From Sulfuricurvum sp. (GTDB lineage: Bacteria > Campylobacterota > Campylobacteria > Campylobacterales > Sulfurimonadaceae): 39,874 bases of DNA. Below the pieces are notes generated by a model. That model ran no database searches and was not told where the DNA came from. It saw nothing but the letters and a program-made list of their open reading frames with translations. Made by a program: the position numbers and the translations under genes. The stretch lies in assembly GCF_028712165.1 (NCBI RefSeq), contig NZ_JAQTQR010000019.1, positions 1 to 39,874 of the forward strand, in the 5' to 3' direction. Positions 463 to 31,535 of the stretch are shown here, in pieces; positions within the stretch are counted from its first letter, which is position 1, and each line of letters opens with the position of its first letter.

Positions 463-479
463 ATTACAGAACGGTTACA
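463..479 (-). promoter_or_regulatory. Possible half Pho box between gspG and the 521 lipoprotein
   Basis: On the minus strand TGTAAC (479-474) and TGTAAT (468-463) are spaced by exactly 11 bp, as in the Pho-box arrays at 20008-20046 and 21903-21941. AATGAT (452-447) lies 10 bp further on as a poor -10, which would point toward gspG. The 12-mer AACGGTTACAAA here is also present in the 21903-21941 array. Only two repeats are clear, and the site also overlaps the predicted start of the rightward transcript, so its direction and function are uncertain. Confidence 0.3.
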
Positions 480-8293: not shown

Positions 8294-9511
8294 TCAACCA
8301 AGACTCAAAGAAAAGATCGGCAGTAACATTGCCGTAACGATGACGCCGATGATCCCTCCCACCACCAAGATCAATGTCGGTTCCAGCAGCGAGAGAAACA
8401 AACCAATCATCTCGCGGTTACGCTCCATATACAGCTCAGAAAGACTCTCAAGCATACTCGGCAATTCGCTCGTCTCTTCACCGACAGCCAAGGCACCGAT
8501 AAAGGCTTCGTCCAATTCGACATGTTCTGCCGATGCAAGTGACGTAGAGAGCCTCCCCCCCTCTACGATCCGCTCAGCTCCATACGCGAATTGAGCTTTT
8601 AACACGGAAGACGAAAGTGTTCCTCCGGCAAGCGAAATCGCCTTGACGATAGGGATACCGGAACGGATTAAAAGCGATGCCACTGCACTGAACCGAGCTA
8701 AATCACTCGTTTGGATAATCTTTCCTACAACCGGTATCGACAATAAAATACGATCAACCCTATAACGAAATGCAGGACGATTTTTCAGTGCAGAAGTAAC
8801 CATCAGAGTTATAATTCCAAATAAGAGAAGGATCCATGGCCATGACACTGAAAAAAACGATGAAAGAGACAAAACACCGCGGGTCAATGCAGGCAGTTCT
8901 TGCCCCATTGTTTCAAAAATAGCAGAGAGTTTGGGAACAACAGAACTGAGCATAAATGAAACGGTGAGGATGGATACCGCGACGATAAATCCGGGATAGA
9001 TAAATGCTTTAGTAAGCTGAGCACGGATTTGCTCACCTACTTGGATATAGGAGGCAAGCTCGCTTAAGACGGCTGCCAAAACACCTCGATCTTCACTCGC
9101 ACGGAGCGTCCCCAAATAAAATGAGGGGATTGCATAAATATTTTGGGCTTCAAGCGCGGCTGACAGGCTTTTCCCCTCATCCAACAAGGTGATCAAAGAA
9201 ACAAAAAAACGTTCTGTTTTAGGTTCATTCCGATATTGGCGCTCCTGCAGTGAAAGTGCCCGTATCAATGGTACCCCTGCCCGCAGATAGACTGCCAGAT
9301 CCCGACTGATCCGGGTCAAAAGCGATGAAGGGATCGCTCTGGTGCCGAGTATCCCGAACAGATCAACCAATGATCCGCTTTGAGTGTTTAAAGAGGAGTA
9401 GATAATCCCCTGCGCCCTGAGCTGACGTTTGGCCTCATCCAGCGAGGCAGACTCCAGAGTTCCGCTGATCTGCACCCCCTCCGGATTTAGCCCTTTGTAA
9501 ACAAATTCCAT
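8294..9511 (-). CDS. gspF: Type II secretion inner-membrane platform protein GspF
   Basis: 405 aa, the usual family length. It has two repeated GspF cytoplasmic domains (about residues 70-190 and 270-390), each followed by membrane helices, and the final LLEPTLILVVGGIIGVIVTAMLLPIFSL segment near the C-terminus is a GspF hallmark. The N-terminus MEFVYKGLNPEGVQISGTLE is also typical. GspF couples the GspE ATPase to pseudopilus assembly in the inner membrane. The start ATG overlaps the gspE stop by one base (TAATG). It is the last gene of the leftward operon; no clear terminator is seen in the 11 bp before the convergent barrel gene. Confidence 0.96.
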   Translation of the reverse strand: MEFVYKGLNPEGVQISGTLESASLDEAKRQLRAQGIIYSSLNTQSGSLVDLFGILGTRAIPSSLLTRISRDLAVYLRAGVPLIRALSLQERQYRNEPKTERFFVSLITLLDEGKSLSAALEAQNIYAIPSFYLGTLRASEDRGVLAAVLSELASYIQVGEQIRAQLTKAFIYPGFIVAVSILTVSFMLSSVVPKLSAIFETMGQELPALTRGVLSLSSFFSVSWPWILLLFGIITLMVTSALKNRPAFRYRVDRILLSIPVVGKIIQTSDLARFSAVASLLIRSGIPIVKAISLAGGTLSSSVLKAQFAYGAERIVEGGRLSTSLASAEHVELDEAFIGALAVGEETSELPSMLESLSELYMERNREMIGLFLSLLEPTLILVVGGIIGVIVTAMLLPIFSLSLG

Positions 9512-11019
9512 TAGATCTCTTTCACACCGACGCGAAGTATCTCTTCCAACGTCGTTTCATGTGAGACCAAAAGATCTTTGAGCTGATCGGCCAAAAATGC
9601 CATAGATCCTTTCATTGCTGCGCGAAGTTCTACGTCATTGTCACACTGTTTCATCAGTGTTTGAACATTCTCATCCATCATCAGTAATTCGCCTACGGCA
9701 ATCCGGCCGCGATAGCCTGTCCCTCCGCACGAGGGGCACCCAACACTTTTGGCCACAAGCAGCTCCATCGGCAGATCAAGGTCATGGGCATCGATAGGAT
9801 CGATCGTTTGAAGTTCATGGCACTCTGAGCAGACCTTACGCACCAGCCGCTGAGCCAATACCCCTAGAAGCGTGGAGGTAACCATAAATTTGTCCACACC
9901 CATATCGACGAGACGGGTAACCGCCGATGTCGCATTATTCGTATGAAGCGTCGAGAAAACGAGATGACCTGTCATCGCTGCTTGAATCGCGATCTGAGCG
10001 GTTTCACCGTCACGAATTTCACCGACAAGGATAATATCAGGATCCTGTCGCAAGATAGAGCGTAGACCTTCGGCAAATGTCAAACCGATCTTCGAATTTA
10101 CTGCTATTTGACTGACGTGTGCGGCATCGTATTCCACCGGATCTTCGATCGACATTACATTTTTTTCAGGCCCTGAGAGCCGCTGGAGGAAAGAGTGAAG
10201 CGTGGTCGATTTTCCGCTTCCGGTCGGCCCGGTCACGAGAATAATACCGTGTGAAAATTTGAGCAGTTCGTAAAAACGTTCTGTTGTAGAACTATTAAAC
10301 CCGAGTTCTTCGAGTCCCGGAATGGATGCTGCATGCATCAGCAATCGCATTACAACCCGTTCGCCGTGATAAGTAGGCAAAACCGATACACGGACATCAA
10401 GCGATTTACCGGCGATTTTAATCTGTGTCCGACCGTCTTGGGGAAGACGTTTTTCAGCGATATCGAGGTTGGAGATGACTTTAATACGGCTGATGACCAA
10501 ACTGATAATCGATTTATCCAGATCAATATGTTTGGAGAGGACACCGTCGATACGAAAACGCACTTCCCCTTTTTTCTCATGAGTTTCGATATGGATGTCA
10601 CTGGCACGACGTTTAAGAGCCTGATAAAAGATGGTGTTGACAAATTTTATGATCGGGGCAGATTCTTCACTGGTCAGCAAATCCGATGAGTTTTTCAGAA
10701 AATCGATCAGTGAGAGTTCATCTTCATACGGCTCTTCCTGCGATACGTTTCGTGTCAGTTCACGATCCGTTTTGAGTTCTAAAAACTTTAGATACAGAGT
10801 CTCATACGTTTGCTCATCCAAATGGATTAGCGGAAGATCCAACGAGAGCCTGTTATACGATGAGAGTGCCGTAGCCGTATCGCGTGCAGAGAGGACTGCA
10901 TATTTTTTTTCATTAATCTCAGCAAAAAGCAATCCGTCACGTATGGTTTCAAACGGATCAATACCCTCTGGGGTAAACGCTACGGCATTGACCTCGGAAA
11001 AAAGAGGAATTTGAACCAT
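9511..11019 (-). CDS. gspE: Type II secretion ATPase GspE
   Basis: 502 aa from the chosen start. It shows RASDIHIE (Asp box), Walker A GPTGSGKST (about 264-272), the Walker-B-like DPDIILVGEIRDGETA, and the His box TGHLVFSTLHTNN. A four-cysteine zinc site follows (CSEC near residue 395 and CPSC about 30 residues on). It powers pseudopilus assembly on the cytoplasmic face. The reading frame is open to an ATG at 11040, but the ATG at 11019 directly follows the gspD stop by one base and has AAGGA upstream, so that start is preferred. Confidence 0.96.
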   Translation of the reverse strand: MVQIPLFSEVNAVAFTPEGIDPFETIRDGLLFAEINEKKYAVLSARDTATALSSYNRLSLDLPLIHLDEQTYETLYLKFLELKTDRELTRNVSQEEPYEDELSLIDFLKNSSDLLTSEESAPIIKFVNTIFYQALKRRASDIHIETHEKKGEVRFRIDGVLSKHIDLDKSIISLVISRIKVISNLDIAEKRLPQDGRTQIKIAGKSLDVRVSVLPTYHGERVVMRLLMHAASIPGLEELGFNSSTTERFYELLKFSHGIILVTGPTGSGKSTTLHSFLQRLSGPEKNVMSIEDPVEYDAAHVSQIAVNSKIGLTFAEGLRSILRQDPDIILVGEIRDGETAQIAIQAAMTGHLVFSTLHTNNATSAVTRLVDMGVDKFMVTSTLLGVLAQRLVRKVCSECHELQTIDPIDAHDLDLPMELLVAKSVGCPSCGGTGYRGRIAVGELLMMDENVQTLMKQCDNDVELRAAMKGSMAFLADQLKDLLVSHETTLEEILRVGVKEI

Positions 11020-11020
11020 T

Positions 11021-12619
11021 TTAGTGCTGTTCCTTAACATTTTTTACCACATCGTCTATATATTGCTGTTGGATTTTATCCAATTCAGCCAACTGTGTTC
11101 GAAGTGTCGCCAAATCCGTACTTTTATCAAGAATGTAAGGGGTTAAAATAATAACAAGGTTAATCTTGTCATGCGAAGTGGCTCTGTCTTTAAAAAGATT
11201 CCCAAGAATCGGTAGATCTCCTAAAAAAGGAACTTTCGAATTACTGCTGTCGTATTTATCTTTGATCAGACCACCAATGATTACACTCTCTCCGTTGTTG
11301 ACGATGGCGGACGTTTTCACTTCACGCTTAGTGGTACTCGGCAATTGTAGATTGGTATTGGTGGCATCTATATCTTCTAACTTGGTTTCAACCGCCAAAA
11401 GAACTTTATTATCATTCGAAAGTCGAGGTTTGATTTTTAGCGTCAAGCCGATATCCTGACGTGTATAACTCGATTGTGTCAGCCCGGTTCCTGTCAGTGT
11501 TGTTCCTGAACTGATCGATTCGGTTTTACCTACATAGATCGACGATTCTTGATTGTCGATACATAAGATAGAGGGTTCTGATAGGATATCTGCCGCGCCA
11601 TTACTGTTGAGCAACGAGATACTGGCACCCAATGCAATCCCTGAACTGAGTGTTGGGATAGTGATGGACTTCAGCAACAATGAATCCAGATTGATCGCAC
11701 CCGTTTTCCCGTCACCCAGAGTCGAGTTGAATGAAAATATCCCGCCTGATCCGAATGATCCGCCGGAGAGCCCGTATTTGAATCCCACTTCCTGTGCTTT
11801 GGTTTCGCTAATTTCAATAATTTTTGCTTTGACATAAACTTGTTGACGCTCACCGTCAAGTCCCTGAATAGTTGGCAATAGTGTCTTAAACAAATCGTCA
11901 CTGCTGATGATAATCAATGAATTCGTCGAATCATCACTGGCGATACTCGGTGGCTGTTGCCCCGGAGAAAGGGTCATTTTGGCAATAACGGTGCTTAGGG
12001 TCGTGACGAGATTTTTTGCATCAGCATTTTTGAGCTGTATGAGATGGGTGTAGTTTGCCGTTGTCTCATCTCGAATATCCATCGCTTCTACCAGCTTGCG
12101 CATTGTCTTGATATTAGCAGGAAGATCGGTAACAATCAGAGAATTTGACTCTTTTGACGGGACGACTTTACCGTTCTTGCTGGAGTAGTTTTTTACTTTG
12201 AGCGCCATTGGTTCAGCCATAGCGTATTTCAGATGAAGTATTTCCGTTTGCAACTGCGGGATATCACTCTTAGCCATAAACGGAACATTCATCGAAGCGG
12301 CATCAACACTTTTAACGATCGAATAATATCCGGCACCCGAATCAATCATTGTCATCCCACGCGCTTCTAGTGTTGTTTGTAAAAGAGTGAAAAGATCTTC
12401 GCGGTGAATCGGATGATTTCCGGCATAGCTGATTTTTCCCCCTATATCTTCGGTAACAAAGATATTTTTATGACTGAGTCTCGCTACCAATTTGATAAAG
12501 TCACCCAGTTCCATACCATCAATAGCAATACTGGCTTTGTCATTTTTTACCGTATCGACAGCGTACACAGGGGTGAGTGCAAAAAGAAAAACGATTAAAA
12601 GGTTAACGGCTGATTTCAT
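11021..12619 (-). CDS. gspD: Type II secretion secretin GspD
   Basis: 532 aa. Signal peptide (cleavage after VYA), N0 domain (about residues 28-95), short N1/N2 repeats with SNSLIVTDLP and TNSLIIISSDD, then the secretin domain ending in VPFLGDLPILGNLFKDR, the signature of the outer-membrane gate. It forms the multimeric outer-membrane channel. It is somewhat shorter than enterobacterial GspD (about 650-700), with fewer N repeats. No pilotin gene was recognised nearby. The ATG at 12619 is preferred over an upstream TTG because AAGGA sits 8 nt before it. It overlaps the 3' end of gspC. Confidence 0.96.
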   Translation of the reverse strand: MKSAVNLLIVFLFALTPVYAVDTVKNDKASIAIDGMELGDFIKLVARLSHKNIFVTEDIGGKISYAGNHPIHREDLFTLLQTTLEARGMTMIDSGAGYYSIVKSVDAASMNVPFMAKSDIPQLQTEILHLKYAMAEPMALKVKNYSSKNGKVVPSKESNSLIVTDLPANIKTMRKLVEAMDIRDETTANYTHLIQLKNADAKNLVTTLSTVIAKMTLSPGQQPPSIASDDSTNSLIIISSDDLFKTLLPTIQGLDGERQQVYVKAKIIEISETKAQEVGFKYGLSGGSFGSGGIFSFNSTLGDGKTGAINLDSLLLKSITIPTLSSGIALGASISLLNSNGAADILSEPSILCIDNQESSIYVGKTESISSGTTLTGTGLTQSSYTRQDIGLTLKIKPRLSNDNKVLLAVETKLEDIDATNTNLQLPSTTKREVKTSAIVNNGESVIIGGLIKDKYDSSNSKVPFLGDLPILGNLFKDRATSHDKINLVIILTPYILDKSTDLATLRTQLAELDKIQQQYIDDVVKNVKEQH

Positions 12620-13415
12620 ATTCAAGATCCTTTGGCTGATTATTGCGTAAAACAGTAATTTTTATAGCTGAATGGTGTATTCCGTTCTGATATGCCGCGA
12701 AAACGGCTGCATAGGAATCAAGAGGTTTATTATCCACACCGGTGATAATATCCCCTTTTTGAAGTCCCAGAAGTGCAAACGGTGTCCCCAAGGCTATCTC
12801 ATCAACTCTGAATCCTACGATTTTACCCTGTTGAACCACTTCGTTGATTGTAATATTTTTCCAGGTCTCACCCATATTTTCCGTATAACGATCTATCGTA
12901 GAACGAGGAATTGCAAAATTAGCTGCAGTAGCAGTTTCATCCGGAACATAGGAGGTAACCGACTCTTTAAGATTGAGATGCCCCTCTTCCCCCAAACGCA
13001 GTACCATACGCTGACCGTATGCACTAAATACAGCCTGTTGTGGTGTGACGCTGACAAGACGGTAGAGATTTTTATACAGTGCACCCTTGTCGACGAACGT
13101 CGTTGCCGTATTATCATTCACTCCGACAAAAGAGTGCGAACCATCCATATATACGGCATTTAAACGGTGAGGAACAGGTGTGAGAACATCGTGTATCACT
13201 TTTTTCATCACAGCAGCGTTGCCGTCGAAATGGAGGGCAAAAAGCTGCCCGAGATGGTATGGCTCGAAGAAAGGAATCATTTCGCTCCTAGGATGTTCAA
13301 TCGAAGTCGCCTTTAAAAACGGCAAGAGTGCCGTTGATACGCTCAAAGCAATAACGATCGGAAGCGCCATACGATTTAGTACACTCAGGGAATGGTCGTT
13401 AAAAAGAGGTTTCAT
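12603..13415 (-). CDS. gspC: Type II secretion GspC-like protein with PDZ domain
   Basis: 270 aa from the ATG at 13415 (MKPLFNDHSL), which has AAGGA at the right distance; the frame is open further upstream but without a good ribosome site. One N-terminal membrane helix (about 18-36), a periplasmic homology region with YLGG-type strands, and a C-terminal PDZ domain (about 190-268, containing FALLGLQKGDIITGVDNKPL). GspC links the inner-membrane platform to the secretin and helps select substrates. It overlaps gspN by 17 nt and gspD by 17 nt. Confidence 0.85.
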   Translation of the reverse strand: MKPLFNDHSLSVLNRMALPIVIALSVSTALLPFLKATSIEHPRSEMIPFFEPYHLGQLFALHFDGNAAVMKKVIHDVLTPVPHRLNAVYMDGSHSFVGVNDNTATTFVDKGALYKNLYRLVSVTPQQAVFSAYGQRMVLRLGEEGHLNLKESVTSYVPDETATAANFAIPRSTIDRYTENMGETWKNITINEVVQQGKIVGFRVDEIALGTPFALLGLQKGDIITGVDNKPLDSYAAVFAAYQNGIHHSAIKITVLRNNQPKDLEYEISR

Positions 13416-13914
13416 AGACCAGTCCTTTATCTGATTTGTGTAATTTAGCCAGTAAAAGCGGGTAAGCGCGCATGATTTGAGAAGGCTCAAATATCACTTC
13501 CAGCCGCTCGTTTTTCAAATCAATCTCTCCGTGAACGGGACCGAATCCCCCCTTGCCTTCGATGACAATACTCAGCGGGTGCAATAAGCTGTAGGTAAAT
13601 GTCAAATACTCAATTCCTTCCGGAAACAATGAGGCGAATTCTCCGCTGAAATTTAATGACGTGATCGTTGCACGATTAAAAAAGATCAACGGAATAACGC
13701 GGATGTGTTCGATGGTTCCGATCGGCATTGAATCCAGTAAAAGAGACGCATCACGGACATCCAGATAAAGAAATCGATCATTCACACTCTCTCCGCTCAA
13801 ATATAAATGTGCAGATGCAAGAGCCTCTTCCGCTGAATAGTAAATATTTGCTTTCGGCAAAAAGATGATGATTCCCAGCAGTAAAAAAGCACCAAATGAA
13901 AGAATTTTTTTCAT
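13399..13914 (-). CDS. Type II secretion GspN-like protein
   Basis: 171 aa with an N-terminal membrane anchor (residues 4-20) and a periplasmic strand-rich domain. The segments SMPIGTIEHIRVIPLIF, NFSGEFASLFP, and GFGPVHGEIDLKNERLEVIFEP resemble GspN/AsmA-like lipid-facing repeats. Its position between gspM-like and gspC genes supports the assignment. GspN is an accessory T2SS protein that many systems lack. It overlaps both neighbours, so it is translationally coupled. Assignment is by topology, motif flavour and context rather than strong sequence identity. Confidence 0.6.
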   Translation of the reverse strand: MKKILSFGAFLLLGIIIFLPKANIYYSAEEALASAHLYLSGESVNDRFLYLDVRDASLLLDSMPIGTIEHIRVIPLIFFNRATITSLNFSGEFASLFPEGIEYLTFTYSLLHPLSIVIEGKGGFGPVHGEIDLKNERLEVIFEPSQIMRAYPLLLAKLHKSDKGLVYETSF

Positions 13915-14309
13915 TGCTCAATCTCCACACTGATGGTTCCTGCATTAGCATTTCGAGACAACACAAGTTTGGTAATCACAAAAGGGGCATTCATCAGTGT
14001 TGAAACGATTCGGTCGAAGTCATTGCCGGAGAGATTGCCGAACTCAAGATAAAGACTCTTTTGTCTTTTTTCCTGACGAATCAGTGCAGGATGGGCAAGT
14101 AAAAAATCGGTCTTTTGTTTTATTTCAGGTGAATTTCCCCATCGTGTTTTTAATGATGACAACCGTTCAGATGTTTGAAGACTTGCATCACGCTGCAATG
14201 CCGCTTCATTCAAAAGAGAATGTTCATGCATCATCCATCCGGCGGCAATGGTAATAGCGACAAAAGAGAGTCCGACTACGAGGGTGGCGGGATCAAATTG
14301 AGCTTTCAT
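13911..14309 (-). CDS. Type II secretion GspM-like protein
   Basis: 132 aa. A short cytoplasmic start, one membrane helix (about 10-27), a helical linker and a small ferredoxin-like periplasmic domain (about 60-132, ending TKLVLSRNANAGTISVEIEQ). Size, topology and location directly after the gspL-like gene fit GspM, which pairs with GspL in the inner-membrane platform. It overlaps gspL and gspN by 4 bp each. Sequence signal alone is weak, as is normal for GspM. Confidence 0.6.
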   Translation of the reverse strand: MKAQFDPATLVVGLSFVAITIAAGWMMHEHSLLNEAALQRDASLQTSERLSSLKTRWGNSPEIKQKTDFLLAHPALIRQEKRQKSLYLEFGNLSGNDFDRIVSTLMNAPFVITKLVLSRNANAGTISVEIEQ

Positions 14310-15418
14310 TGAATACTCCCCTCAACCGTGTTCTCTTTGATCGTCACGGTATTGGTTTTAAGAGTTTTTGCCACACTATCGCGTATTTTCTCCGCATCCT
14401 GCGGTGAAGGGGTGGAAATTTTGAAATGTACGGATCCGTTTTCATAGGCAAGTGAGGTTACATACTCACCGGACACTGTTCCCGAGAGCGTGTTTGAACC
14501 ACCCGGAACCAACAGAAGATTGCGATCCCCCGGGTTGGAACCGGGTACAAGAACAATTCCGTTTGAAGCAGGAGCAGGAGCGGCAACCGGTAAAACCGTA
14601 TTGTTGTTTTCCAACGTCAATGTCGAAAATGCGGCAAATATTTTACGCAATTTCATCTGCTGTGATTCTTTTTTCTCCCATGATGAGGCAAGCGCATCCA
14701 ACTCCATTTGAGTAGCGGGAAGATTTTTTTCGATTTTCATCTGTTCTTGCTCATCTGCAATCTTTCCTGCCTCACGATAAGAATATCCCCCTTGTATCAG
14801 GAGGTTCAGGAGAATAATAAGGGAAAGCGAGAGTGTTATAGTAAGGGTTTTTTTTGTTACGTCTCCCCCTTTATACATATCTGCTCTAAAACCGGTCAAA
14901 CACGGTGCGAGTTTTTGAAGAGATACCTCTAAATCGTATTTGGGCGGTTCGCCGATATACTCCGAGGGTAACCGTACAACGATCCCATCATTCAATGCCA
15001 GGACTGAACCATTTTTCAAAGAAACAGGGAGAATATCCACTCCAAAGGCTTCTTGAGCAAGGACGAAACGTTCGACCGAAACAGGATCAACCCCTGCTTC
15101 TTCCAGTCGTACTCGAATCGGTTCCGGATCAAAAGCGCTTAAAAGATATCGCCCTTCCCCAAGCTGATAAGCTCCGTAACGAGTCCGTTCATCACTCAAA
15201 TCAAAATAAGAAGGGGCATATCGAACCGCTTCTTTAGGAGTTGCTACAGGGAGAGAAACAACGCAAATTCGATAAAGGTCGGGAGAGAGGATCAGGACCA
15301 ATGCTTCGCTTCCGGAAGGAATATGGCAACTAGAATGGTCCAAATAACCGTAGCGTCGTTTTCCGAAGCAACGTATAGAACGGATCAAACGATCAGTAAT
15401 CGAGTGGAGAAGGTTCAT
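14306..15418 (-). CDS. Type II secretion GspL-like protein
   Basis: 370 aa. The cytoplasmic part (1-185) is strand-rich like the actin-like domain of GspL. A single membrane helix (about 190-208) and a helical linker follow. The periplasmic part (about 285-370) ends in a ferredoxin-like fold, with GEYVTSLAYENGSVHFKISTPSPQ. A Pro/Gly-rich linker contains two similar units (IVLVPGSN and LLLVPGGSN). GspL recruits GspE to the membrane and pairs with GspM. It overlaps gspK and gspM by 4 bp each. Context gives much of the confidence. Confidence 0.75.
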   Translation of the reverse strand: MNLLHSITDRLIRSIRCFGKRRYGYLDHSSCHIPSGSEALVLILSPDLYRICVVSLPVATPKEAVRYAPSYFDLSDERTRYGAYQLGEGRYLLSAFDPEPIRVRLEEAGVDPVSVERFVLAQEAFGVDILPVSLKNGSVLALNDGIVVRLPSEYIGEPPKYDLEVSLQKLAPCLTGFRADMYKGGDVTKKTLTITLSLSLIILLNLLIQGGYSYREAGKIADEQEQMKIEKNLPATQMELDALASSWEKKESQQMKLRKIFAAFSTLTLENNNTVLPVAAPAPASNGIVLVPGSNPGDRNLLLVPGGSNTLSGTVSGEYVTSLAYENGSVHFKISTPSPQDAEKIRDSVAKTLKTNTVTIKENTVEGSIQ

Positions 15419-16332
15419 TGAATAATCTCCAAACGATTAAAGGTACGATTGAGTGTGTCAATATGAAATTCGAATTCGCTTCCCGCACCATCCATTTCCA
15501 TGGCTACCTTTCCGATCAGGGGATAAGAGTTCCCTGCACTGTACACAAAAAACCATGAATCATACAACGAAGAGAGCTGAGCGGCAGCGGCAATGACCTG
15601 CTCTTTGCTCTCAAAGGGCACTGTTCTAAGATCGGTTATACGATGAAGTGTTTCAGAATCAATTTCCGGTGCGATAAGGGCAACAAGTTCCGGTGAAGCG
15701 TAATTGAAATCTATTTTGTCTCCTTCAAACCCAATAAGGCGTTCCCACGGAATTGCAAGAATCTGAGTATCTTTTGTCAATGCAAGATAACGCGCAATAA
15801 TCTGCCTAAACTGAGTAAAGTTTTCAATCGATCCGTTATGGAAATCAGGGAAAACTGCCGCGACTTCACTGCCCGCTTGACGCTCAGTTAAATCAGTATC
15901 AATTGTATCGTAAAGAATGTTAATAAACGTATCCGGTGCTGCGATGGGATAGTGTGTGAATATCGCTGAGAGAAGCGTGGAATACGGCTCTATCGGTTTA
16001 CCGCTCACATCGCATACTTTGTTAATATTGAACCTTCCAAGAGGTGAATGCAACGAAGCCTCGAGAGTAAATCGACCATCAGTTGAGCGGCTTGATAACG
16101 GCAAAATCATCGCATATTCCAAATCATGAGCAGAGCCGATTTTAGAAAGCATTCCCGGAAGAAGTCGCTTGAGATCACTCGAAATCTTACTGATTTCAGC
16201 ATCACTTCGGCTCCGTTCAGACAGCCGCAGCAACTGGTCGCTTTGAGAAAGTAAAAGAGCAATTCCCCCACTCATAATCGCAATCAGAAGCAGTGTCATC
16301 AACAATACGGCACCGCGGCGTTTCATCCCCAT
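15415..16332 (-). CDS. gspK: Type II secretion minor pseudopilin GspK
   Basis: 305 aa. The start MGMKRRGAVLLMTLLLIAIMSG is a prepilin-like leader with Gly at -1 and, as usual for GspK, no Glu at +5. The large soluble domain (about 45-290) includes LGRFNINKVCD and FNYASPELVALIAPEI, typical of the GspK helix-hairpin region. GspK caps the tip of the pseudopilus with GspI and GspJ. It is the first gene of the leftward T2SS operon, preceded by the shared element at 16377-16409. A second in-frame ATG at 16326 has better spacing to GAGGGA and could be the true start. Confidence 0.9.
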   Translation of the reverse strand: MGMKRRGAVLLMTLLLIAIMSGGIALLLSQSDQLLRLSERSRSDAEISKISSDLKRLLPGMLSKIGSAHDLEYAMILPLSSRSTDGRFTLEASLHSPLGRFNINKVCDVSGKPIEPYSTLLSAIFTHYPIAAPDTFINILYDTIDTDLTERQAGSEVAAVFPDFHNGSIENFTQFRQIIARYLALTKDTQILAIPWERLIGFEGDKIDFNYASPELVALIAPEIDSETLHRITDLRTVPFESKEQVIAAAAQLSSLYDSWFFVYSAGNSYPLIGKVAMEMDGAGSEFEFHIDTLNRTFNRLEIIQ

Positions 16333-16423: not shown

Positions 16424-17587
16424 TCAATGACTGTACCCATCTGTTAACGTCATCAAAAATGCCACAAGGGCATCTTCTTCTTCGTTCGTCAGATTCAGGT
16501 CACCAATAAAATCTTTATTGACATTGTCCGCTACTTCCGGAGCTCCCCATCTCGCAGGATCCGAATCACGGGTATTGTAAAACGAGACGACTTGTTTTAG
16601 GGTTGTAAATACGCCGTTATGCATATACGGCCCGGTTAACTCCACATTACGGAGTGTCGGGGTTTTAAATTTCCCTCTGCTTTGGGCAACACGACCATCG
16701 GCAATTACTTTAGGATTACGTGCCAACCCTGTATCGATAAAGTTTTCTCCGTCTGGATTGTACTCGCTTGGAAGCGTATAAAATTTATTATTCGGATTTT
16801 TCGGAACACCGATATTTTCATAATCGTACTCGGTAAAAAGTGCCGGTACCGTCGTCAAATCCTCGTTTGCAACAGGATGGCATACAAAACATTTTCCTTT
16901 CCCGACAAAAAGATCCAGCCCTAATTTTTCTTGCGCCGTTAGATTTGCATCCCCTTTTTGAAACGCATCAAATTTTGAAGAAAATGCCGAGAGTTGGGAC
17001 GTCCGCTCATAGGTTGCCAGTGCATCGCCGATAGCCGCATAGGTTTTGTTGGCATCTGCAAAAATAGTTTGCCCGTATATCCGTTTAAATTCACCGGCAT
17101 ATGCAGCTTGGGCAATTTTGCTGCTGTAGCTCTCTTTTGAGGCATTGTGCATTTCGAGCGGGTTGAGAGGAGGCCCTCCTGCTTGGATTTCAAGAGTTGA
17201 CGCACGCCCGTCTAAAAACTCTCCTCCGACATATCCCGTGCCGTCATAATAAAATTCGGGCGAATACTGAGAATAGGCAATGGTAGGAGCGTTGCGATCC
17301 GCGAATAATCCGACAACTGCACCTTCGGATGTAGGATTGGTATGATCTGGATTGGCAAATCCCGCCTCAGGCGAATGACATGATGCACATGATTGTCCTA
17401 CAGGATCGGAGAGATTGGTGTCAAAAAAGATCGCTTTACCCAGTGCGATTTTTTCTGCTTCGGTAATTTTTTCTTCTTGCGCAGTCGTAGTGGTTGTGTT
17501 CGTATCCGATGTTGCATCGCTTTGACACCCAACAACAATACACAATGCGATAACGCTCAATGTTCCTATAATAAACCGTTGTTTCAT
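16424..17587 (-). CDS. Di-heme cytochrome c peroxidase (MauG/CcpA type) lipoprotein
   Basis: 387 aa. Lipobox (VVGC, Cys21), then two heme c sites: CASCH (67-71) and CFVCH (about 233-237). FFDTNLSDPVGQSCASCHSP, the GLARNPKV/GKFKTPTLRNVELTGPYMHNGVFTTLKQVVSFYN block and the Met in PYMHNG (probable heme ligand) are family hallmarks. It reduces hydrogen peroxide in the periplasm with electrons from small cytochromes. The ATG at 17587 is preferred because AGGAAG lies just before it; an ATG at 17611 lacks a site. It follows phoX in the same direction but a terminator (17634-17660) separates them. Confidence 0.93.
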   Translation of the reverse strand: MKQRFIIGTLSVIALCIVVGCQSDATSDTNTTTTTAQEEKITEAEKIALGKAIFFDTNLSDPVGQSCASCHSPEAGFANPDHTNPTSEGAVVGLFADRNAPTIAYSQYSPEFYYDGTGYVGGEFLDGRASTLEIQAGGPPLNPLEMHNASKESYSSKIAQAAYAGEFKRIYGQTIFADANKTYAAIGDALATYERTSQLSAFSSKFDAFQKGDANLTAQEKLGLDLFVGKGKCFVCHPVANEDLTTVPALFTEYDYENIGVPKNPNNKFYTLPSEYNPDGENFIDTGLARNPKVIADGRVAQSRGKFKTPTLRNVELTGPYMHNGVFTTLKQVVSFYNTRDSDPARWGAPEVADNVNKDFIGDLNLTNEEEDALVAFLMTLTDGYSH

Positions 17588-17615
17588 CTTTACTTCCTCT
17601 TCTTTGACCAAAAAT

Positions 17616-17668: not shown

Positions 17669-19957
17669 TTAGCGGATAGCAGGAAGTTTCATGTATCCGA
17701 TGGCCGCTTTTTTCTTGTTGACATTATCGAGAGCTTGTTGAACGGTTGCATTGGTAGTTGTCCAATCACCAGGGTGTTGAATACTAGACATCACATATCC
17801 ATGTCCATTGAGGTTATCGATAGCTTGAAGACCTGTAGCCTCAGCCCCAACAGTCGTTGAAAGGATACGAGAAAGTTTTTTCGTATCGACGTTGTATGCC
17901 CAAACAAAGTTGTTGACATGCAAACCGCTGTCTTCACCGACAAAGAGTGTACGCATTTTTTCTGAGTATTTGAGGTTGTCCGGATTTGCGATTTTATTCA
18001 CATCGCCGGTATTTCCGAATGTATCTTTAGCAATCGTCAATCCGGTCAAAGCAGGCATAGCATTCATAGCTGTTGCAACATAATCACTTGCAATCGTTGC
18101 ATTTAGCGTGTCTTTTTGTCCAGTAGTAAGTGAGAGTTCAAAAACTGCACCCGCTTTTTCAACCGGAACATGGATATCATCTACCGGATCAGATCCGCTT
18201 GCTGCCATACCTTTTTCCATATAGGAAATTGCCATATAGACTTTTTTGTCTTTGGCATTGAGTGTTACCCCTTCCATTTTGTTAAACTCGCTGGTTGCAC
18301 CGAGCAATGCACCGTAACGACGAGATTCCAAGAAAGCTGCTGCCAATTCTTTGCCAGCTACGAGTTTTATGTATTCCGTCCCTTTATAGGTTTTGATTTT
18401 GGTAAATCCGGCTGTTGCAGATGCAGCTGTTTCGAAAATATCACTGAATTTGATTCCACCGTCGATAATTGTTTTAATTTCCGCATCGGTTGCGTGACCC
18501 AGTTTGATCCATGTTAGGTTTGCTTTGACAGCACGGTCATCTGATGCACTGGTTTGATTCCATTTAGCCGCATAAAGAGTCCCTGCGCTCAAATCACCTG
18601 CTGTATCGGCAACGTACATAAAGAGCATAGTGTAATCGCCGTCATCTCCGAAATAAACCGTTTTATTATCCGGCATCACTTGTGCAAGCTCATGTGAGAA
18701 ACGTCCCATGCTGTAGTGTTTTTTAACAGTTGTTGCACCTGCAGCCGTTACAGTTGTTTCGTGGATAAACCCATAGTTGTAAACCTTGGCTGTCGTTGTA
18801 TCTCCAAAATAAGCATTTGGTCCGCCAAGTGTATCGGTTCCTGAACCGGTTCCTAGTTCAACCAATTTAGCATTCGGCTCATACTCTTCACTTCCCAGAT
18901 GGGTTGTCCATGGAGTCATACTCGCTGCACAGGTAATCCATAATCCGCTGACACTGCTTGTATTGATATTGGAAATATTGCTGACAGAAAAATCTCCGTT
19001 AGCGGCTTGTGTCAATGTGCTAAGATTCATCATAGCCGGCAAAACGCCGTATCGGCTTGCTCCGCTTCCATCCGCCGTAACGTATTCGAATTGAGAAACC
19101 ATTTGGATCGTATTTCCGATTTGCATTACGCTTTGACCATCCGGTGTGTCTGAAACAAACGGAGTCGGTGTTGCTGTACTCGTATCCATGATTGGATTAC
19201 CGTTAACATCCAAAATCGCTCCGACCGTTGTCCCGCCGATAACATCCGTAGTATTCATCAGTGTTTTGTACTCGATAGGACGAACAATACGTGTTCCGTC
19301 ACTGTATTTGACTGCAACATACGCTTCGGAATAAATGTGATCCATTTTATCTGCTGTTGTCGGAGCATCCATTCCGATAAACTCCGTGCTAACGACAGTG
19401 GCAGTTGCTGGAACAGTACCTTTGGTTGAAAGTTCCGCCAGAGATTCACGGAAATGCGATTTAACCTCATTAGACGCTTTCACTGTTGCTCCGGCAGCAG
19501 TCAAAGAGTTGGATACATTCGCATCATCTGATAAATCAAGCGATTTGATTTTTGAGGCCATAGTAGTATCGATCACAATACCGTTCGCTGCATTGCCGTC
19601 ATTATCCAAAGATTGAAGAAGCATCAGCATATTGGTCGTTTTGGTACCATCAATTCCATCATCACTAAGATCAAGCGGAGTTACAAGTGTAGAACCGTTT
19701 GTCTCACCTAATAGAGCACCGTTTTGTCCAAGATAGAATTTGACATTCTTACCTGATTCATATTTGAACGTACCGTTCTCATCCGTTGTCCCGGTAGTAG
19801 CACCGCTGACATAATAGAGTCCTTTTACCGGACTATCGACAAATGTTCCGGTTTGAACACTCGTAGTGGTTGAAGAAGATGAACCGCCGCATCCAACAAA
19901 AAGCGATGCGCCTAAAACTGCTGCCGCCGCCACAAGAGAATAATTACGATAATGCAT
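17669..19957 (-). CDS. phoX: PhoX-type alkaline phosphatase lipoprotein with N-terminal accessory module
   Basis: 762 aa. Sec lipoprotein signal (LFVGC, Cys23), then a module shared with the neighbouring metallophosphatase (about 35-175). The C-terminal catalytic part matches PhoX/DUF839: ITCAASMTPWTTHLGSEEY (the Cys and Glu expected near the iron/calcium centre), MGRFSHELAQV, VYFGDDGDYTMLFMYVAD, GTLYAAKW, and near the end SSIQHPGD. PhoX enzymes hydrolyse phosphate esters outside the cytoplasm to release phosphate. Known PhoX proteins are usually Tat substrates, but no twin arginine is present here (MHYRNYSL). AAGGGGA is the ribosome site. A Pho-box array lies directly upstream (19992-20046), so phosphate-starvation control is likely. 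A terminator follows the gene. Confidence 0.88.
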   Translation of the reverse strand: MHYRNYSLVAAAAVLGASLFVGCGGSSSSTTTSVQTGTFVDSPVKGLYYVSGATTGTTDENGTFKYESGKNVKFYLGQNGALLGETNGSTLVTPLDLSDDGIDGTKTTNMLMLLQSLDNDGNAANGIVIDTTMASKIKSLDLSDDANVSNSLTAAGATVKASNEVKSHFRESLAELSTKGTVPATATVVSTEFIGMDAPTTADKMDHIYSEAYVAVKYSDGTRIVRPIEYKTLMNTTDVIGGTTVGAILDVNGNPIMDTSTATPTPFVSDTPDGQSVMQIGNTIQMVSQFEYVTADGSGASRYGVLPAMMNLSTLTQAANGDFSVSNISNINTSSVSGLWITCAASMTPWTTHLGSEEYEPNAKLVELGTGSGTDTLGGPNAYFGDTTTAKVYNYGFIHETTVTAAGATTVKKHYSMGRFSHELAQVMPDNKTVYFGDDGDYTMLFMYVADTAGDLSAGTLYAAKWNQTSASDDRAVKANLTWIKLGHATDAEIKTIIDGGIKFSDIFETAASATAGFTKIKTYKGTEYIKLVAGKELAAAFLESRRYGALLGATSEFNKMEGVTLNAKDKKVYMAISYMEKGMAASGSDPVDDIHVPVEKAGAVFELSLTTGQKDTLNATIASDYVATAMNAMPALTGLTIAKDTFGNTGDVNKIANPDNLKYSEKMRTLFVGEDSGLHVNNFVWAYNVDTKKLSRILSTTVGAEATGLQAIDNLNGHGYVMSSIQHPGDWTTTNATVQQALDNVNKKKAAIGYMKLPAIR

Positions 19958-19991: not shown

Positions 19992-20046
19992 ATAGTAGGA
20001 AGTAGCGGTTACAAAAAGATAACATTACAGTAATAAATTCGTAACA
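19992..20046 (-). promoter_or_regulatory. Pho-box promoter of phoX
   Basis: On the minus strand four direct repeats occur at exact 11-bp spacing: TGTTAC (from 20046), TATTAC (20035), TGTTAT (20024), TGTAAC (20013). Ten bp later is TACTAT (19997-19992) as the -10. This repeat period and the 10-bp gap to the -10 are the known arrangement of PhoB-activated promoters in E. coli. The predicted transcript starts near 19985, about 28 nt before the ATG. Confidence 0.75.
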
Positions 20047-20146
20047 TTTTCGCATTAGTATCAGTTTTTTGCAGTTATAGAAACTGATGATATAACAATA
20101 AGTAATTTTAGAGAATCAAGTATTGTTATAGCATCTTAAAGAGACT

Positions 20147-20178
20147 AAAACTGCCCGAGTACAAAGTATGGGCAGTTT
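20147..20178 (-). terminator. Terminator of the metallophosphatase gene
   Basis: Perfect 9-bp inverted repeat AAACTGCCC (20148-20156) and GGGCAGTTT (20170-20178) with a 13-nt loop, 10 bp after the stop. On the minus strand it is followed by only four T, so it is a good hairpin with a modest U-tract. The rest of 20047-20146 shows no gene. Confidence 0.55.
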
Positions 20179-20187
20179 CATATTCAA

Positions 20188-21849
20188 CTATTGATTGATA
20201 CGTTTCCAGCTGAATGGTCCAAAAGCATCTTTACCGTGTGCGGCATTGGCTTTTGAATAAATGGACAGTTTGATCCATTCCATCGGATTTGTACTTCCAT
20301 GCACAACGATACGGTGGAAATTTGGTACGTTATAGCCATTCGGCTGTGTTTCATAAGGATCGGCAGGATTAGTCCCAAGTACGGGAATGGCATTATCAGC
20401 ACTACATGCTACCGCATCAACACCCGGCGTCGGCTCGATGTAACAAGGTGAATTTGGTTTCAGTGGATTATCCGAACGGAATACATGCGAATCACCGTTA
20501 ACGAGCAATACTGGTTTACCGAACATCGTAGACCCTGCCGCGATTTTATCAATGTATCGTTTGTAGTTGCTGATATGTTCAGCACTGGCACCGTCAGTGT
20601 CCCACATATCGGCTTGGGTAAGAATAACCATCGCATAATCTCCCGATGCTTTAGCCTTTGCAAAAGCAACATCCAACCAGCGTAAATCGGCTGCACTGCG
20701 CTGTGCAACTTCATTTTGCTGTTGTGTGCTCATCGACGGTGCACCGTACCAAGGATCGGTATCATCATTGGAACCGCCGGGAATATTGACGGCTACATAC
20801 AGTACTCCGTCTTTTTCCCACCAAACATTTTCCGAAAAGTTTGCATCATTAGGATAAGCATGATCATAATCAACCGCTTGCGAGTGCACGCTCATCGCAG
20901 TACCCAATGTAGTACCCGGATTGGCAAAAAACAATGCACGGATAAGATTTAGATTGTCAACCGGATTGCCGCTGGCATAATCTATCGGATTATTATTGGC
21001 ATCGAGTACATAATCAATTTGAGTCGTTGTACTGTTATAAGCACCTCCACCCTCTTTTTTCTTATGACAATCCGTCCATTCGTTGTCACCCGGGGTATAA
21101 ATCAGCGGTTTGTTGTAAGTTCCAAAAAGTGTTGAAATATTTCGATCGTATTCTTCAGTACAGTATTGTTTGCCCGAGTGGATATCCCCTGCATGCAATA
21201 TGGCTGATACTTGTTTGTCTTGATTGATTGATGCGATAAAAGTAGGCATTGCATTATACTGACTGACGTCGGTTGGGGAAGTTCCGTATGGGAGGTCTCC
21301 GATGAGCGCTACATGAGTTGCAGCCGACAACGTAGATAATGTGTCTCGGAAATGTTCTCTTGCTTCATCGGCAGTTTTGATCGTTGCCCCTGCAGCAGTC
21401 AATCCTGCTGTTACGTTTACATCATCGCTAAAGTTAAATGATTTGACTTTAGCCGCTTTAGTTATGTTAATATCAATACCGTTTGAAGCATCTCCGTCGC
21501 TATCCAATGATTGAAGTACTCGAAGGATATTAGACGTTTTAGTACCGTCGATTCCATCATCACTCAAATCAAGTGGAGTTACGAGGGTAGAACCGTTTGT
21601 TTCACCTAATAGAGCACCGTTTTGTCCAAGATAGAATTTAACCGTTTTACCTGATTCATATTTGAACGTACCATTGTCATCCGTCGTTCCGTTAGTAGAA
21701 CCACTGACATAATAGAGTCCTTTAACAGGGCTGTCAACAAATGTCCCCGTTTGAACACTCGTGTTGGATGAGTCACTGCCACATCCGACAAATAGCGATA
21801 CGCCTAAAACAGCCATCGCTGCAGCAAGAGAATAAGTCCGTAAATGCAT
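20188..21849 (-). CDS. Calcineurin-like metallophosphatase lipoprotein
   Basis: 553 aa. Lipobox LFVGC (Cys23); residues about 33-175 are nearly identical to the same region of the adjacent PhoX. The catalytic part starts near 185 with HVALIGDLPYG, then HAGDIHSG (metal-binding Asp and His), PLIYTPGDNEWTDC (in place of GNHD), and LLVNGDSHVF (final GDSH metal motif). These are the ordered motifs of the metallophosphoesterase superfamily, though several are variants. It is probably an outer-surface or periplasmic phosphatase or phosphodiesterase. The ATG at 21849 is chosen: AAAGGGA precedes it, and the ATG at 21876 would sit only about 4 nt after the predicted transcript start. A Pho-box array lies upstream. 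Confidence 0.8.
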   Translation of the reverse strand: MHLRTYSLAAAMAVLGVSLFVGCGSDSSNTSVQTGTFVDSPVKGLYYVSGSTNGTTDDNGTFKYESGKTVKFYLGQNGALLGETNGSTLVTPLDLSDDGIDGTKTSNILRVLQSLDSDGDASNGIDINITKAAKVKSFNFSDDVNVTAGLTAAGATIKTADEAREHFRDTLSTLSAATHVALIGDLPYGTSPTDVSQYNAMPTFIASINQDKQVSAILHAGDIHSGKQYCTEEYDRNISTLFGTYNKPLIYTPGDNEWTDCHKKKEGGGAYNSTTTQIDYVLDANNNPIDYASGNPVDNLNLIRALFFANPGTTLGTAMSVHSQAVDYDHAYPNDANFSENVWWEKDGVLYVAVNIPGGSNDDTDPWYGAPSMSTQQQNEVAQRSAADLRWLDVAFAKAKASGDYAMVILTQADMWDTDGASAEHISNYKRYIDKIAAGSTMFGKPVLLVNGDSHVFRSDNPLKPNSPCYIEPTPGVDAVACSADNAIPVLGTNPADPYETQPNGYNVPNFHRIVVHGSTNPMEWIKLSIYSKANAAHGKDAFGPFSWKRINQ

Positions 21850-21886
21850 GGGAATCCCTTTTTTTGGTGTTTTCATTAAACCAAAA

Positions 21887-21941
21887 ATAATAGGGAGTCC
21901 GAATTACAAATCTATTACTGTAATGTTATCGATTTGTAACC
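21887..21941 (-). promoter_or_regulatory. Pho-box promoter of the metallophosphatase gene
   Basis: On the minus strand GGTTAC (from 21941), GATAAC (21930), AGTAAT (21919) and TGTAAT (21908) are spaced by 11 bp, and TATTAT (21892-21887) follows after exactly 10 bp. The array also contains a perfect inverted repeat, TTACAAATC (21904-21912) and GATTTGTAA (21931-21939), so it can be read on both strands; only the minus reading places a -10 correctly. Confidence 0.7.
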
Positions 21942-22698: not shown

Positions 22699-25044
22699 AT
22701 GCAGTTAAAAGATTTGCAAAGTCTAAAAAGTGCTTTGAAAATCTCTGTTTATTACCTTGTTTTCGGACTTGTATGGATCTATTTTTCGGATAGTGTCGTA
22801 GAACTACTCTCATCGGACAACCCTCATAAACTCACACTTCTTCAAAATTATAAAGGGTGGTTTTTCATTGCCGCTACTACCTTATTTCTCTTCATTTTAA
22901 TCTATCGATTATTACATAAAGGATTTATCCAATATACACGACGTATCAATGAGCAAATAGCCGCTCATGAGCTGCTTGCACAACAAGACGCCCTTCTAAG
23001 TACGATTGTCAACGGATCGCCTGATGCCATATATGCAAAAGACATGGAAGGCAGATACATTTTGTTCAACACTGGTGCCGGAGAGCTGGTCAATATTGCA
23101 CCTGAAAAAGTCATTGGAAAAACGGATGAACTCCTTTTTTCTCCGGAAGCAGCACAAAAAATCAAAGAAATGGACCGATTAACACTCATAGGCGGGGCGA
23201 TACATAATCATGAAGAAGATTTGATAACCTCCGGTGGAATAGAAAAAAGCTTTTGGGTTACGAAAGGACCATTAATCGCTGAAAACGGAAAGACATTCGG
23301 ACTTTTCGGAATTTCTCGTGATATAACGGAATTCAAAGCTTCCCAAACCCGTTTGGAACAGAAAAACGCTCTTTTAAATTCCCTCATCGATAGTTCCTCT
23401 GATGCCATTGCCATAAAAGGGCTGGATAGACGATATATAATACTCAACGAAGCAGCAGGACTACTTTCAGGACTCCCAATTAAAGATGTCCTTGGAAAAA
23501 CAGCAGATGAAATTTTCCCTCCGGAAACTGCGCAGATGATTAATAAGCTCGATGATGAGCTACTGGAAAAAAAATCTTTTATTGAACATGAAGAAACGAT
23601 GCTCATGCCTAATGGTACTACACAAATCAATTGGGTTACAAAAGGGCTTCTTACCACTGCAAACGGTGAGCTGTTCGGAATCTTCGGAATCTATCGCAAT
23701 ATCACGGCAGCCAAACAATATGAACAAGCCATCATCGATGCCAAAGAACATTTCGACTATATGGCACATCATGATCCACTTACCGAGCTCCCTAATCGCC
23801 CTAGTTTGATCGAAAAACTTCTATTCAAAACATACAGTCCCGAATCGCCTCCGTTTGCACTATTATTCCTTGATCTCGATGGTTTCAAAGAGGTAAATGA
23901 TTCCTACGGTCATCGATTCGGGGATGAACTTTTGATTCGCATCACCCACTTATTGCAAGGACTTTTTCCATCCGACACCTTTATCGCCCGTACCGGAGGA
24001 GATGAATTCGTCATCCTCTTATCATGTCATCAAGATAAAAATATCATCCATAACACGATGTCCAACCTCATCGATATACTCAATAATCCTTTTCACATCG
24101 AAGAGATAGATGTATATATCACTGCCAGTATCGGTATCGCAATGTATCCAAAAGATGCCACCAATGCCGAAGAGCTCCTACAAAAAGCCGATGCAGCCAT
24201 GTACAATGCAAAAAATATGGGAAGAAATACCTATAGTTTCTACGACACCGTGTTTACTGAAAAAGCACTCTATCGCACCACCCTCGCCACACATCTAAAA
24301 AAAGCATTGCAAAACAACGAACTGGAACTCTATTTCCAGCCTCAAGTTGATGTGCGTTCTGGAAATATTATCGGCATAGAAGCCCTCATACGATGGTCTA
24401 CACCAGAAGAGATGATTTCACCTGCAGTTTTTATACCTATAGCCGAAGAGAGCGGATTAATTCTCCAATTAGGTGAATTTGTTCTGATGAAAGGGTGTCT
24501 AATTGCTGCACAATGGTCAAAGGAAGGATTGTTGCGAGGTCGTCTTGCTATCAATGTTTCAGCACGTCAGCTCAATCATATCGATTTCCTCATGACTCTC
24601 GATCGTATTATCCAAGAGACAGAATGCAGTCCTACATTCATTGAGCTGGAAATCACTGAGAGTTCTATTCTCGAACATCCTGAAAAAATGATAGCCCTTT
24701 TAGAGATTATCAAAGCAAAAGGATTTCATATATCTATAGATGATTTCGGTACGGGGTATTCGTCCCTCTCTTATCTGAAAAATCTCCCCATCGACAAACT
24801 CAAAATCGATATCTCCTTTATCCGGAATATCACTATGGAACCGAAAAACCAAACTATTGTCAAAACCATCATCGCTCTTGCAAAAGGACTAAGTATGCAA
24901 GCGCTTGCTGAAGGGGTTGAAACCGATGATGAATTCTCGTTTCTGCGAGAAAACAACATTGATTCGATACAAGGGTACTACTATTACAAACCTATGCCGT
25001 CCACAGAAATTCAATCATTGCTTTTAAATTATAAAGATATCTAA
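22699..25044 (+). CDS. Membrane PAS-PAS-GGDEF-EAL cyclic-di-GMP protein
   Basis: 781 aa. Two membrane helices (about 15-35 and 52-72), two similar PAS domains (about 95-212 and 225-340), GGDEF domain (345-510; GGDEF at about 434) and EAL domain (525-775; EAL at about 560). The EAL residues needed for phosphodiesterase activity appear intact: EALIRW, INVSARQ, ELEITES, SIDDFGTGYSSLSYL, LKIDISF, AEGVET and QGYYYYKPM. The GGDEF motif is also intact, with no RxxD inhibitory site at the usual place. It may therefore make and/or degrade c-di-GMP in response to a PAS-sensed signal such as redox state or oxygen. Monocistronic, with its own -10. Confidence 0.93.
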   Translation: MQLKDLQSLKSALKISVYYLVFGLVWIYFSDSVVELLSSDNPHKLTLLQNYKGWFFIAATTLFLFILIYRLLHKGFIQYTRRINEQIAAHELLAQQDALLSTIVNGSPDAIYAKDMEGRYILFNTGAGELVNIAPEKVIGKTDELLFSPEAAQKIKEMDRLTLIGGAIHNHEEDLITSGGIEKSFWVTKGPLIAENGKTFGLFGISRDITEFKASQTRLEQKNALLNSLIDSSSDAIAIKGLDRRYIILNEAAGLLSGLPIKDVLGKTADEIFPPETAQMINKLDDELLEKKSFIEHEETMLMPNGTTQINWVTKGLLTTANGELFGIFGIYRNITAAKQYEQAIIDAKEHFDYMAHHDPLTELPNRPSLIEKLLFKTYSPESPPFALLFLDLDGFKEVNDSYGHRFGDELLIRITHLLQGLFPSDTFIARTGGDEFVILLSCHQDKNIIHNTMSNLIDILNNPFHIEEIDVYITASIGIAMYPKDATNAEELLQKADAAMYNAKNMGRNTYSFYDTVFTEKALYRTTLATHLKKALQNNELELYFQPQVDVRSGNIIGIEALIRWSTPEEMISPAVFIPIAEESGLILQLGEFVLMKGCLIAAQWSKEGLLRGRLAINVSARQLNHIDFLMTLDRIIQETECSPTFIELEITESSILEHPEKMIALLEIIKAKGFHISIDDFGTGYSSLSYLKNLPIDKLKIDISFIRNITMEPKNQTIVKTIIALAKGLSMQALAEGVETDDEFSFLRENNIDSIQGYYYYKPMPSTEIQSLLLNYKDI

Positions 25045-25122
25045 TATGAAATTTATTATTTAAATTTAATGCTTAGTCTGTATTATTCAGTATTTAAAAA
25101 ATTCAAACACTCTGAAACACAG

Positions 25123-25128
25123 TATAAT
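25123..25128 (+). promoter_or_regulatory. -10 box of the soluble GGDEF gene
   Basis: Perfect TATAAT in AGTATAATAG, 41 nt before the ATG at 25170. No convincing -35 is seen. Confidence 0.4.
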
Positions 25129-25169
25129 AGTCGTAAGTGGCTTGACTATATACAGGTTAATGAGAAAAG

Positions 25170-25940
25170 ATGAAAAATTTGCACCAAGAACATATAGAAA
25201 TTACCGGTGAAGTCAAAGAAACAATAAAAGATATCAAAATCGTATTTCCAGCCTTATACGGAAAGCTCTACCAAGAAGCGGCACATTCTCGTGATGTTGA
25301 GCTCAAACCCGATGAGCTATTGACACGCGAAATGCTTGATGAAAAGATCGTTCGCCATGTTATTACTCTCGCCGACTGTGCCGATCAGGCCATTAAAGCC
25401 ATAGAGACCGAAAATAAAGTGATTTTAGCGACTGTTTTATCTGAAACAAAAAAACTTCAGAAAGAGATTCAAGAACTTCAGAAAATCGTATATGAAGACG
25501 GTCTTACCAAAAGTTATAATCGTAAATGGTTTGAAGACACCGTTTTAGATCACAACCACCTCACTTTGCGTGAAAATGGTACAATCGTCCTTATCGATCT
25601 GAATAAATTTAAAGAGATCAATGACACGTACGGACATATTATCGGAGACAAAGTACTCATTCATCTTACCGTTAAACTTAAAGAGACCGGTGGACGGGTT
25701 GTACGCTATGGAGGTGATGAATTTATTGTCATTTTTGATTCATCTGTCAATTCAACACAAATCAAAAAAAAAATGGAAAAACTTCTTGCTTATTTTGAAA
25801 AGATCCATTTCAAAGTCGAAGATCAATCGTTTAAAATCAGTTTTGCATATGGGTTGGCTCCATTTACCCGCGGTGCAGACATTTCGAGCGTTATCGGAAG
25901 TGCAGATAAATCAATGTATAAACATAAAAATACAAAATAG
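25170..25940 (+). CDS. Soluble GGDEF diguanylate cyclase
   Basis: 256 aa with no membrane helix. Residues 1-110 are helical, ending in a probable coiled coil (KVILATVLSETKKLQKEIQELQKIV). This leads through the conserved DGLTKSYNRKWF linker into a GGDEF domain (about 110-255) with LIDLNKFKEINDTYGH and VVRYGGDEFIVIF (GGDEF at about 181-185). It should make c-di-GMP from GTP as a dimer. No RxxD inhibitory site was seen. The N-terminal input region (1-80) is not recognised; a signal may come through a partner protein. It follows the GGDEF-EAL gene by 125 nt with its own promoter. Confidence 0.9.
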   Translation: MKNLHQEHIEITGEVKETIKDIKIVFPALYGKLYQEAAHSRDVELKPDELLTREMLDEKIVRHVITLADCADQAIKAIETENKVILATVLSETKKLQKEIQELQKIVYEDGLTKSYNRKWFEDTVLDHNHLTLRENGTIVLIDLNKFKEINDTYGHIIGDKVLIHLTVKLKETGGRVVRYGGDEFIVIFDSSVNSTQIKKKMEKLLAYFEKIHFKVEDQSFKISFAYGLAPFTRGADISSVIGSADKSMYKHKNTK

Positions 25941-26033
25941 TTTCAACTTCCGTACAATTACTGAAAATTGTACCTATCCATATAAAACTTCTTAAAAAAA
26001 ATTCCGCGTAGTTTTCTGTTGTTTAGCTAGTGA

Positions 26034-26039
26034 TATAAT
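26034..26039 (+). promoter_or_regulatory. -10 box of the P-type ATPase gene
   Basis: TATAAT in GTGATATAATCA, 52 nt before the ATG at 26092. The ribosome site CGAAGGAG is close to consensus. Confidence 0.45.
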
Positions 26040-26091
26040 CAAAGCCGTTGCTAACAATATCATTAACCTCTCAACCTCCGAAGGAGATACG

Positions 26092-28662: not shown

Positions 28663-28709
28663 TCAATATTCAACCCATTCCGATGATATTGTTAGGTGTT
28701 TGAAAATGC

Positions 28710-31531: not shown

Positions 31532-31535
31532 ATTT

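Follow-up and report, generated by a model that had tools for sequence, protein, structure and literature searches.

The window, that is, the whole stretch of 39,874 nucleotides analyzed here, carries two genes for predicted phosphatase lipoproteins, phoX and metP, each headed by an array of four short repeats and a −10 hexamer, together with an operon of type II secretion system (T2SS) genes. The features are as follows:

463..479 (region 447-479), strand unassigned: two-unit Pho-like pair GATTACagaacGGTTAC, upstream of ORF 521-2482, a weak candidate
8294..16332, minus strand: T2SS operon GspK, L, M, N, C, D, E, F, downstream of phoX-mauG (L, M and N by position only)
16424..17611, minus strand: mauG/di-haem cytochrome c peroxidase gene, adjoining phoX in four of the five relatives with phoX
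17669..19957, minus strand: phoX, lipoprotein with the shared N-terminal module and a PhoX domain (PF05787)
19992..19997, minus strand: phoX −10, TACTAT, after a 10-bp spacer (cgctacttcc) that follows the last unit
20008..20046, minus strand: phoX four-unit Pho array in 11-bp steps, TGTTAC (20046-20041), TATTAC (20035-20030), TGTTAT (20024-20019) and TGTAAC (20013-20008)
20056..20061, plus strand: −10-like TAGTAT, a candidate, 10 bp away from the half of the phoX array that faces outward
20188..21876, minus strand: metP, lipoprotein that shares this N-terminal module and has a Metallophos domain (PF00149)
21887..21892, minus strand: metP −10, TATTAT, after a 10-bp spacer (tcggactccc) that follows the last unit
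21903..21941, minus strand: metP four-unit Pho array in 11-bp steps and ancestral orientation, GGTTAC (21941-21936), GATAAC (21930-21925), AGTAAT (21919-21914) and TGTAAT (21908-21903)

The PhoX domain reaches 82.2 bits against a gathering score of 24, and alkaline phosphatase activity is predicted for the protein; a sequence search found no PDB homolog, the matches of PhoX to influenza haemagglutinin (E 0.04-0.08) being due to chance. The Metallophos match of metP is marginal, with 24.2 bits against a gathering score of 21.5, and the function of its product as a calcineurin-like metallophosphatase is putative. The N-terminus of PhoX, MHYRNYSLVAAAAVLGASLFVGC, is a lipoprotein-type signal without the RR pair. 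A twin-arginine signal has been reported for the PhoX of Campylobacter jejuni, and is typical rather than defining. The true start of metP is probably the ATG at 21849, because the ATG at 21876 lies upstream of the homologous start and of the AAGGG ribosome site. Promoter, leader and signal are common to both genes, and so is an N-terminal module of 180 aa, 74% identical (19400-19957 in phoX, 21300-21849 in metP); since promoter, leader and N-terminus are homologous, the two arrays are not fully independent pieces of evidence. An ortholog of phoX is present in five of 40 congeners, and full-length metP in none of the 40. In relative G035, whose PhoX is 89% identical, phoX comes directly after the small gene that is found ahead of metP in the window, so that metP looks like the product of an insertion or duplication in the ancestral place. 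The orthologs of G035, G011 and G015 keep both the array and the −10, and in G002 and G017 the array is degenerate.

The first-pass annotation had described four NGTNAY-like units at exact 11-bp steps in both promoters, with the last unit 10 bp from the −10. The spacings are borne out by the sequence, every step being 11 bp and both gaps exactly 10 bp. The motif needs some widening: six of the eight units fit NGTNAY, the second unit of each array having A at position 2, and all eight fit NRTWAY (N[G/A]T[A/T]AY). The window is contig C53 of a genome of 2.72 Mb, 99.9% complete, in a genus with some 40 sequenced species. This genome was searched by sequence patterns, and four consecutive (RTWAY, N6) units without mismatch were found only twice in it, at phoX and at metP. 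With up to two mismatches allowed, the 36 matches per strand come close to the 27 of the control.

A Pho box is built from at least two 11-nt direct repeat units, and both arrays contain them; they also overlap the −35 region and lie at the same fixed distance from the −10 as in phoA of Escherichia coli. This promoter, TGTCATaaagtTGTCAC-N10-TATAGT (TGTCAT-N5-TGTCAC-N10-TATAGT), was read as a positive control, and it justifies the earlier appeal to the geometry of PhoB-dependent promoters. Common to the E. coli phoA and phoB boxes and those described here are the 11-bp direct repeats, the NGTNAY-type half-site and the 10 bp from last unit to −10. Unlike in E. coli, the units number four, the array is nearly dyad-symmetric, and at the fourth base of the half-site, where TGTCA has C, all eight units have A or T. 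The consensus of the Pho box is known to vary between species (PMC4415409).

A candidate for the protein that reads these repeats is encoded elsewhere in the genome, within a cluster of phosphate genes. On contig C16 (L080), pstS is followed divergently by phoU, the regulator, a PhoR/PnpS-like kinase, a polyA-polymerase/CCA-like gene, pstC, pstA and pstB, and a gene for a 458-aa protein lies on the other side of pstS. Every promoter of the cluster carries a box, and two of the one-mismatch four-unit arrays elsewhere lie upstream of olsF and of a transporter gene:

contig C16, 5850-6524: PhoB-like response regulator, adjoining phoU, the PhoR/PnpS-like kinase and pst
contig C16: pstS box, TGTAATcgtttCGTTAC-N10-TACAAT
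contig C16: phoU operon (phoU-phoB-phoR) box, TGTAATctcacGGTTAT-N10-TATAAT
contig C16: box of the 458-aa protein gene, TGTAACacgtaTGTAAT-N10-TACAAT
contig C16: pstC (pstCAB) box, CGTAACagtgtTGTAATcatgaTGTAAT, with a poorer −10
olsF (ornithine-lipid synthase) array: CGTAATctgccAGTAATcaaaaTGTAATcccttTGAAAT-N10-TACTCT, one mismatch
PHO4/Pit transporter array: TGTAATcatttCGTAACcatttTGTAGC-N10-TATTAT, one mismatch

The regulator and E. coli PhoB share 36% identity, and PhoB is the best NCBIfam match of the regulator; it is named only PhoB-like because its score, 193.8 bits, lies below the equivalog cut-off of 296.2. Base-specific contacts of PhoB are made by T194, V197, R201 and R219 (PMC3264566, PMC3973317), and all four residues are identical in the local protein. 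Their neighbours in the recognition helix are changed (D196N, H198A, R200N, R203K), which would fit a half-site in which G, T and A are retained and the C is replaced by A or T. Ornithine lipid is a phosphate-free membrane lipid and its synthesis a classical Pho target. The 458-aa protein (L080:2389-3765), with its strong box, adjoins pstS in many relatives and matches no Pfam or NCBIfam family; it is perhaps a phosphate porin. Looser patterns, with two mismatches or with a single box containing one, occur at or below the control level genome-wide, and their matches were left out of the regulon. The pair at 463..479 has no good −10 at 10 bp and seems to point away from ORF 521-2482. This ORF encodes a lipoprotein of 653 aa without Pfam match; next to it come a LolA-like gene and one for a large membrane protein.

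The same box recurs across relatives. In the pstS-phoU intergenic regions of the congeners inspected, a box with about N10 to TANAAT is present, nearly always in both directions, and the divergent pstS and phoU boxes are kept in nearly all congeners examined. Similar boxes stand at pst, phoU or the gene of the regulator in most of the other families sampled in the order, one example being TGTAACcaaatTGTATC-N10-TACAAT. The strict pattern TGTWAY-N5-NGTWAY-N10-TANAAT gave 110 matches in 60 genomes, mostly at pst loci, against six for the reversed control (88 against three in the genus, 22 against three in other families); the genomes being related, p-values drawn from these figures do not count independent events. 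Several genomes of other families that have the regulator contain no zero-mismatch match of this pattern. A matrix built from 62 distinct promoters reads ttTGTAAYC-N4-nGTTAYm-N10-TACAAT, and the genus consensus TTGTAAYC-N4-NGTTAY-N10-TACAAT. The box is directional, the forward orientation beating the reverse in 60 of the 62 promoters, a test that leans on the bases outside the selected core, since this geometry had already served to select the matrix. These pst/phoU-type promoters have A, T or sometimes G, never C, at position 4 of the half-site. Judged by layout and position, the element is an order-wide PhoB-type Pho box. The first reading as a classical-type box is thus upheld for the layout, and has to be broadened in scope, as it is no exception of one genome but the rule in most sampled families of the order.

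The arrays of phoX and metP are very probably activating sites for the PhoB-like regulator, switched together with pstSCAB, pit and olsF. The array was looked for at phosphate genes of the genome and its relatives, as the first-pass annotation had proposed, and is present at both; the single phosphate-starvation regulon postulated there corresponds to a predicted regulon that includes phoX, metP, pstSCAB and the PhoB-like system. At low phosphate, the PhoR/PnpS-like kinase would phosphorylate the regulator, which would then occupy the 11-bp repeats over the −35 region in head-to-tail order and bring sigma-70 RNA polymerase to the −10 that lies 10 bp further downstream, so that phoX and metP would be induced along with pstSCAB, pit and olsF. 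The promoter-proximal pairs of the two arrays score 12.2 and 4.0 on the directional matrix, compared with a mean of 23.1 for pst promoters; given these scores and its off-consensus second unit, metP may be a weak target. The Pho site of C. jejuni is reported to differ from this type and to consist of GTTTC repeats. Phosphate control by PhosS/PhosR in that species is described as non-classical in the title of Wosten 2006 (PMID 16956379). C. jejuni, of the same phylum, likewise places phoX and pst under two-component phosphate control (PMC3197622, PMC9449129). In the open literature searched, no published Pho box was found for Campylobacterota other than C. jejuni.

Comparison of the arrays with one another revealed a feature that was not part of the earlier annotation. 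The phoX array matches that of metP at 33 of 38 positions when inverted and at 25 of 39 directly. The same holds against phoX of G035, G011 and G015, with 34, 35 and 33 of 38 identities inverted and 21 to 25 of 39 direct, while the metP array matches these three at 33-34 of 39 positions in direct orientation. The promoter flanks and the −10 of phoX are not inverted. By these identities the phoX array, as read from one contig of the assembly, has the opposite orientation to the array of metP and to those of phoX in the three near relatives, the array alone having been turned round in place. Scoring with the directional matrix shows, moreover, that each array is composed of two back-to-back boxes: in the ancestral array the distal two units mostly score better outward and the proximal two inward. 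The phoX array of the window scores 23.7 forward and 11.9 reversed; by these scores the inversion turns the stronger box towards phoX, and it leaves phase and −10 distance unchanged. Recombinase-driven phase variation is unlikely for the array, whose terminal repeats measure only 5-6 bp, and the window ORFs scanned include no recombinase domain; a one-off quasi-palindrome template switch is the simpler account.

The back-to-back layout raises the question of whether the arrays serve mainly for divergent control, the outward box driving a transcript away from phoX (T2SS genes in G015, a short or antisense RNA in the window) and the phosphatases being secondary targets of the PhoB-like regulator. 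The outward tendency of the distal units in metP and the ancestral phoX arrays would agree with it, as would the −10-like hexamers starting with TA that lie exactly 10 bp outward in the phoX arrays of the window (TAGTAT), G011 (TAGCAT), G015 (TAGTAT) and G017 (TAAACT). In G015, furthermore, the outward side faces the divergent gspK, first gene of the T2SS operon, about 74 bp away. However, such a divergent gene occurs in that one relative only, the outward side in the window and in G035 faces the 3′ ends of genes, and the −10 facing phoX is the better conserved, which makes this reading unlikely. On the outward side of the phoX array, the interval 20056-20180 contains the opposite-strand −10-like TAGTAT, followed by an inverted repeat (ATAACAATA...TATTGTTAT) together with a hairpin of terminator type; it may encode a small RNA.

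The symmetry of the arrays can also be read in another way, as the operator for a dimeric protein with no role in phosphate control, for instance a repressor of the TetR or MarR type, that recognizes the quasi-palindrome (centre ATTACAGTAAT, outer GTTAC...GTAAC), with the 11-bp register a mere by-product. The array does read as repeats on both strands, and the metP array and the phoX arrays of G011 and G015 come close to dyad symmetry. Nevertheless, pstS, phoU and other phosphate genes have two-unit forms of the motif that are direct and strongly oriented, with the forward direction favoured as described and the same 10-bp distance to the −10, and no palindrome is needed there; such an operator is therefore highly improbable. 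Chance similarity in AT-rich DNA, conceivable for a short and degenerate motif whose loose pairs match genome-wide at the control rate, is in practice already refuted by the conservation of the arrays in orthologs, by the restriction of four exact units to phoX and metP, and by their match to a motif enriched at phosphate genes.

The T2SS was identified by the NCBIfam models GspD, E, F, C and K. In the genome under study, G035 and G011 its operon follows phoX-mauG on the same strand; it is divergent from phoX in G015 and nearby and convergent in G002, and no T2SS gene lies in the stretch examined around phoX of G017. As a terminator-like hairpin with a T-run (17660-17643) directly follows phoX, co-transcription of mauG and gsp with this gene may be only partial. 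Of 41 congeners, 14 have the N-terminal module, and all 14 also have this GspD (in one as a contig-edge fragment), which is found in 22 of the 41; the hypergeometric chance of this co-occurrence is 9e-6, uncorrected for shared ancestry. The module is also present in many paralogs of about 740 aa in the genus. SslE/AcfD lipoproteins are substrates of T2SS. The module of phoX and metP resembles them weakly (E about 4e-4), and the genes are similarly linked to a T2SS; unlike SslE/AcfD, it lies far below the family cut-off, is without a protease domain, and is joined to catalytic parts that are phosphatase domains. Export of the phosphatases to the surface by the T2SS is a good hypothesis from this linkage. 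A bolder proposal, tentative and rather doubtful at present, is that the back-to-back array tolerates either orientation, can be flipped with phase and both −10 distances kept, and couples the surface phosphatases to their own T2SS, so that phosphate starvation would co-induce both and the module would mark the substrates. The window further contains dense PAS/GGDEF/EAL/HD signalling genes and a P-type ATPase (22699-32894 and 36658-39824), with nitrogenase-type gene(s) at its right end.

For environmental Campylobacterota, the analysis yields a defined Pho box together with the phosphate regulon predicted from it, and suggests that a PhoB-type box is no exception in the order but common across it. 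Linkage to the T2SS operon suggests a route by which the phosphatases might reach the cell surface. Box orientation relative to the promoter is normally taken as strict for PhoB, and the inverted back-to-back array of phoX would constitute a natural experiment on how much that orientation matters.
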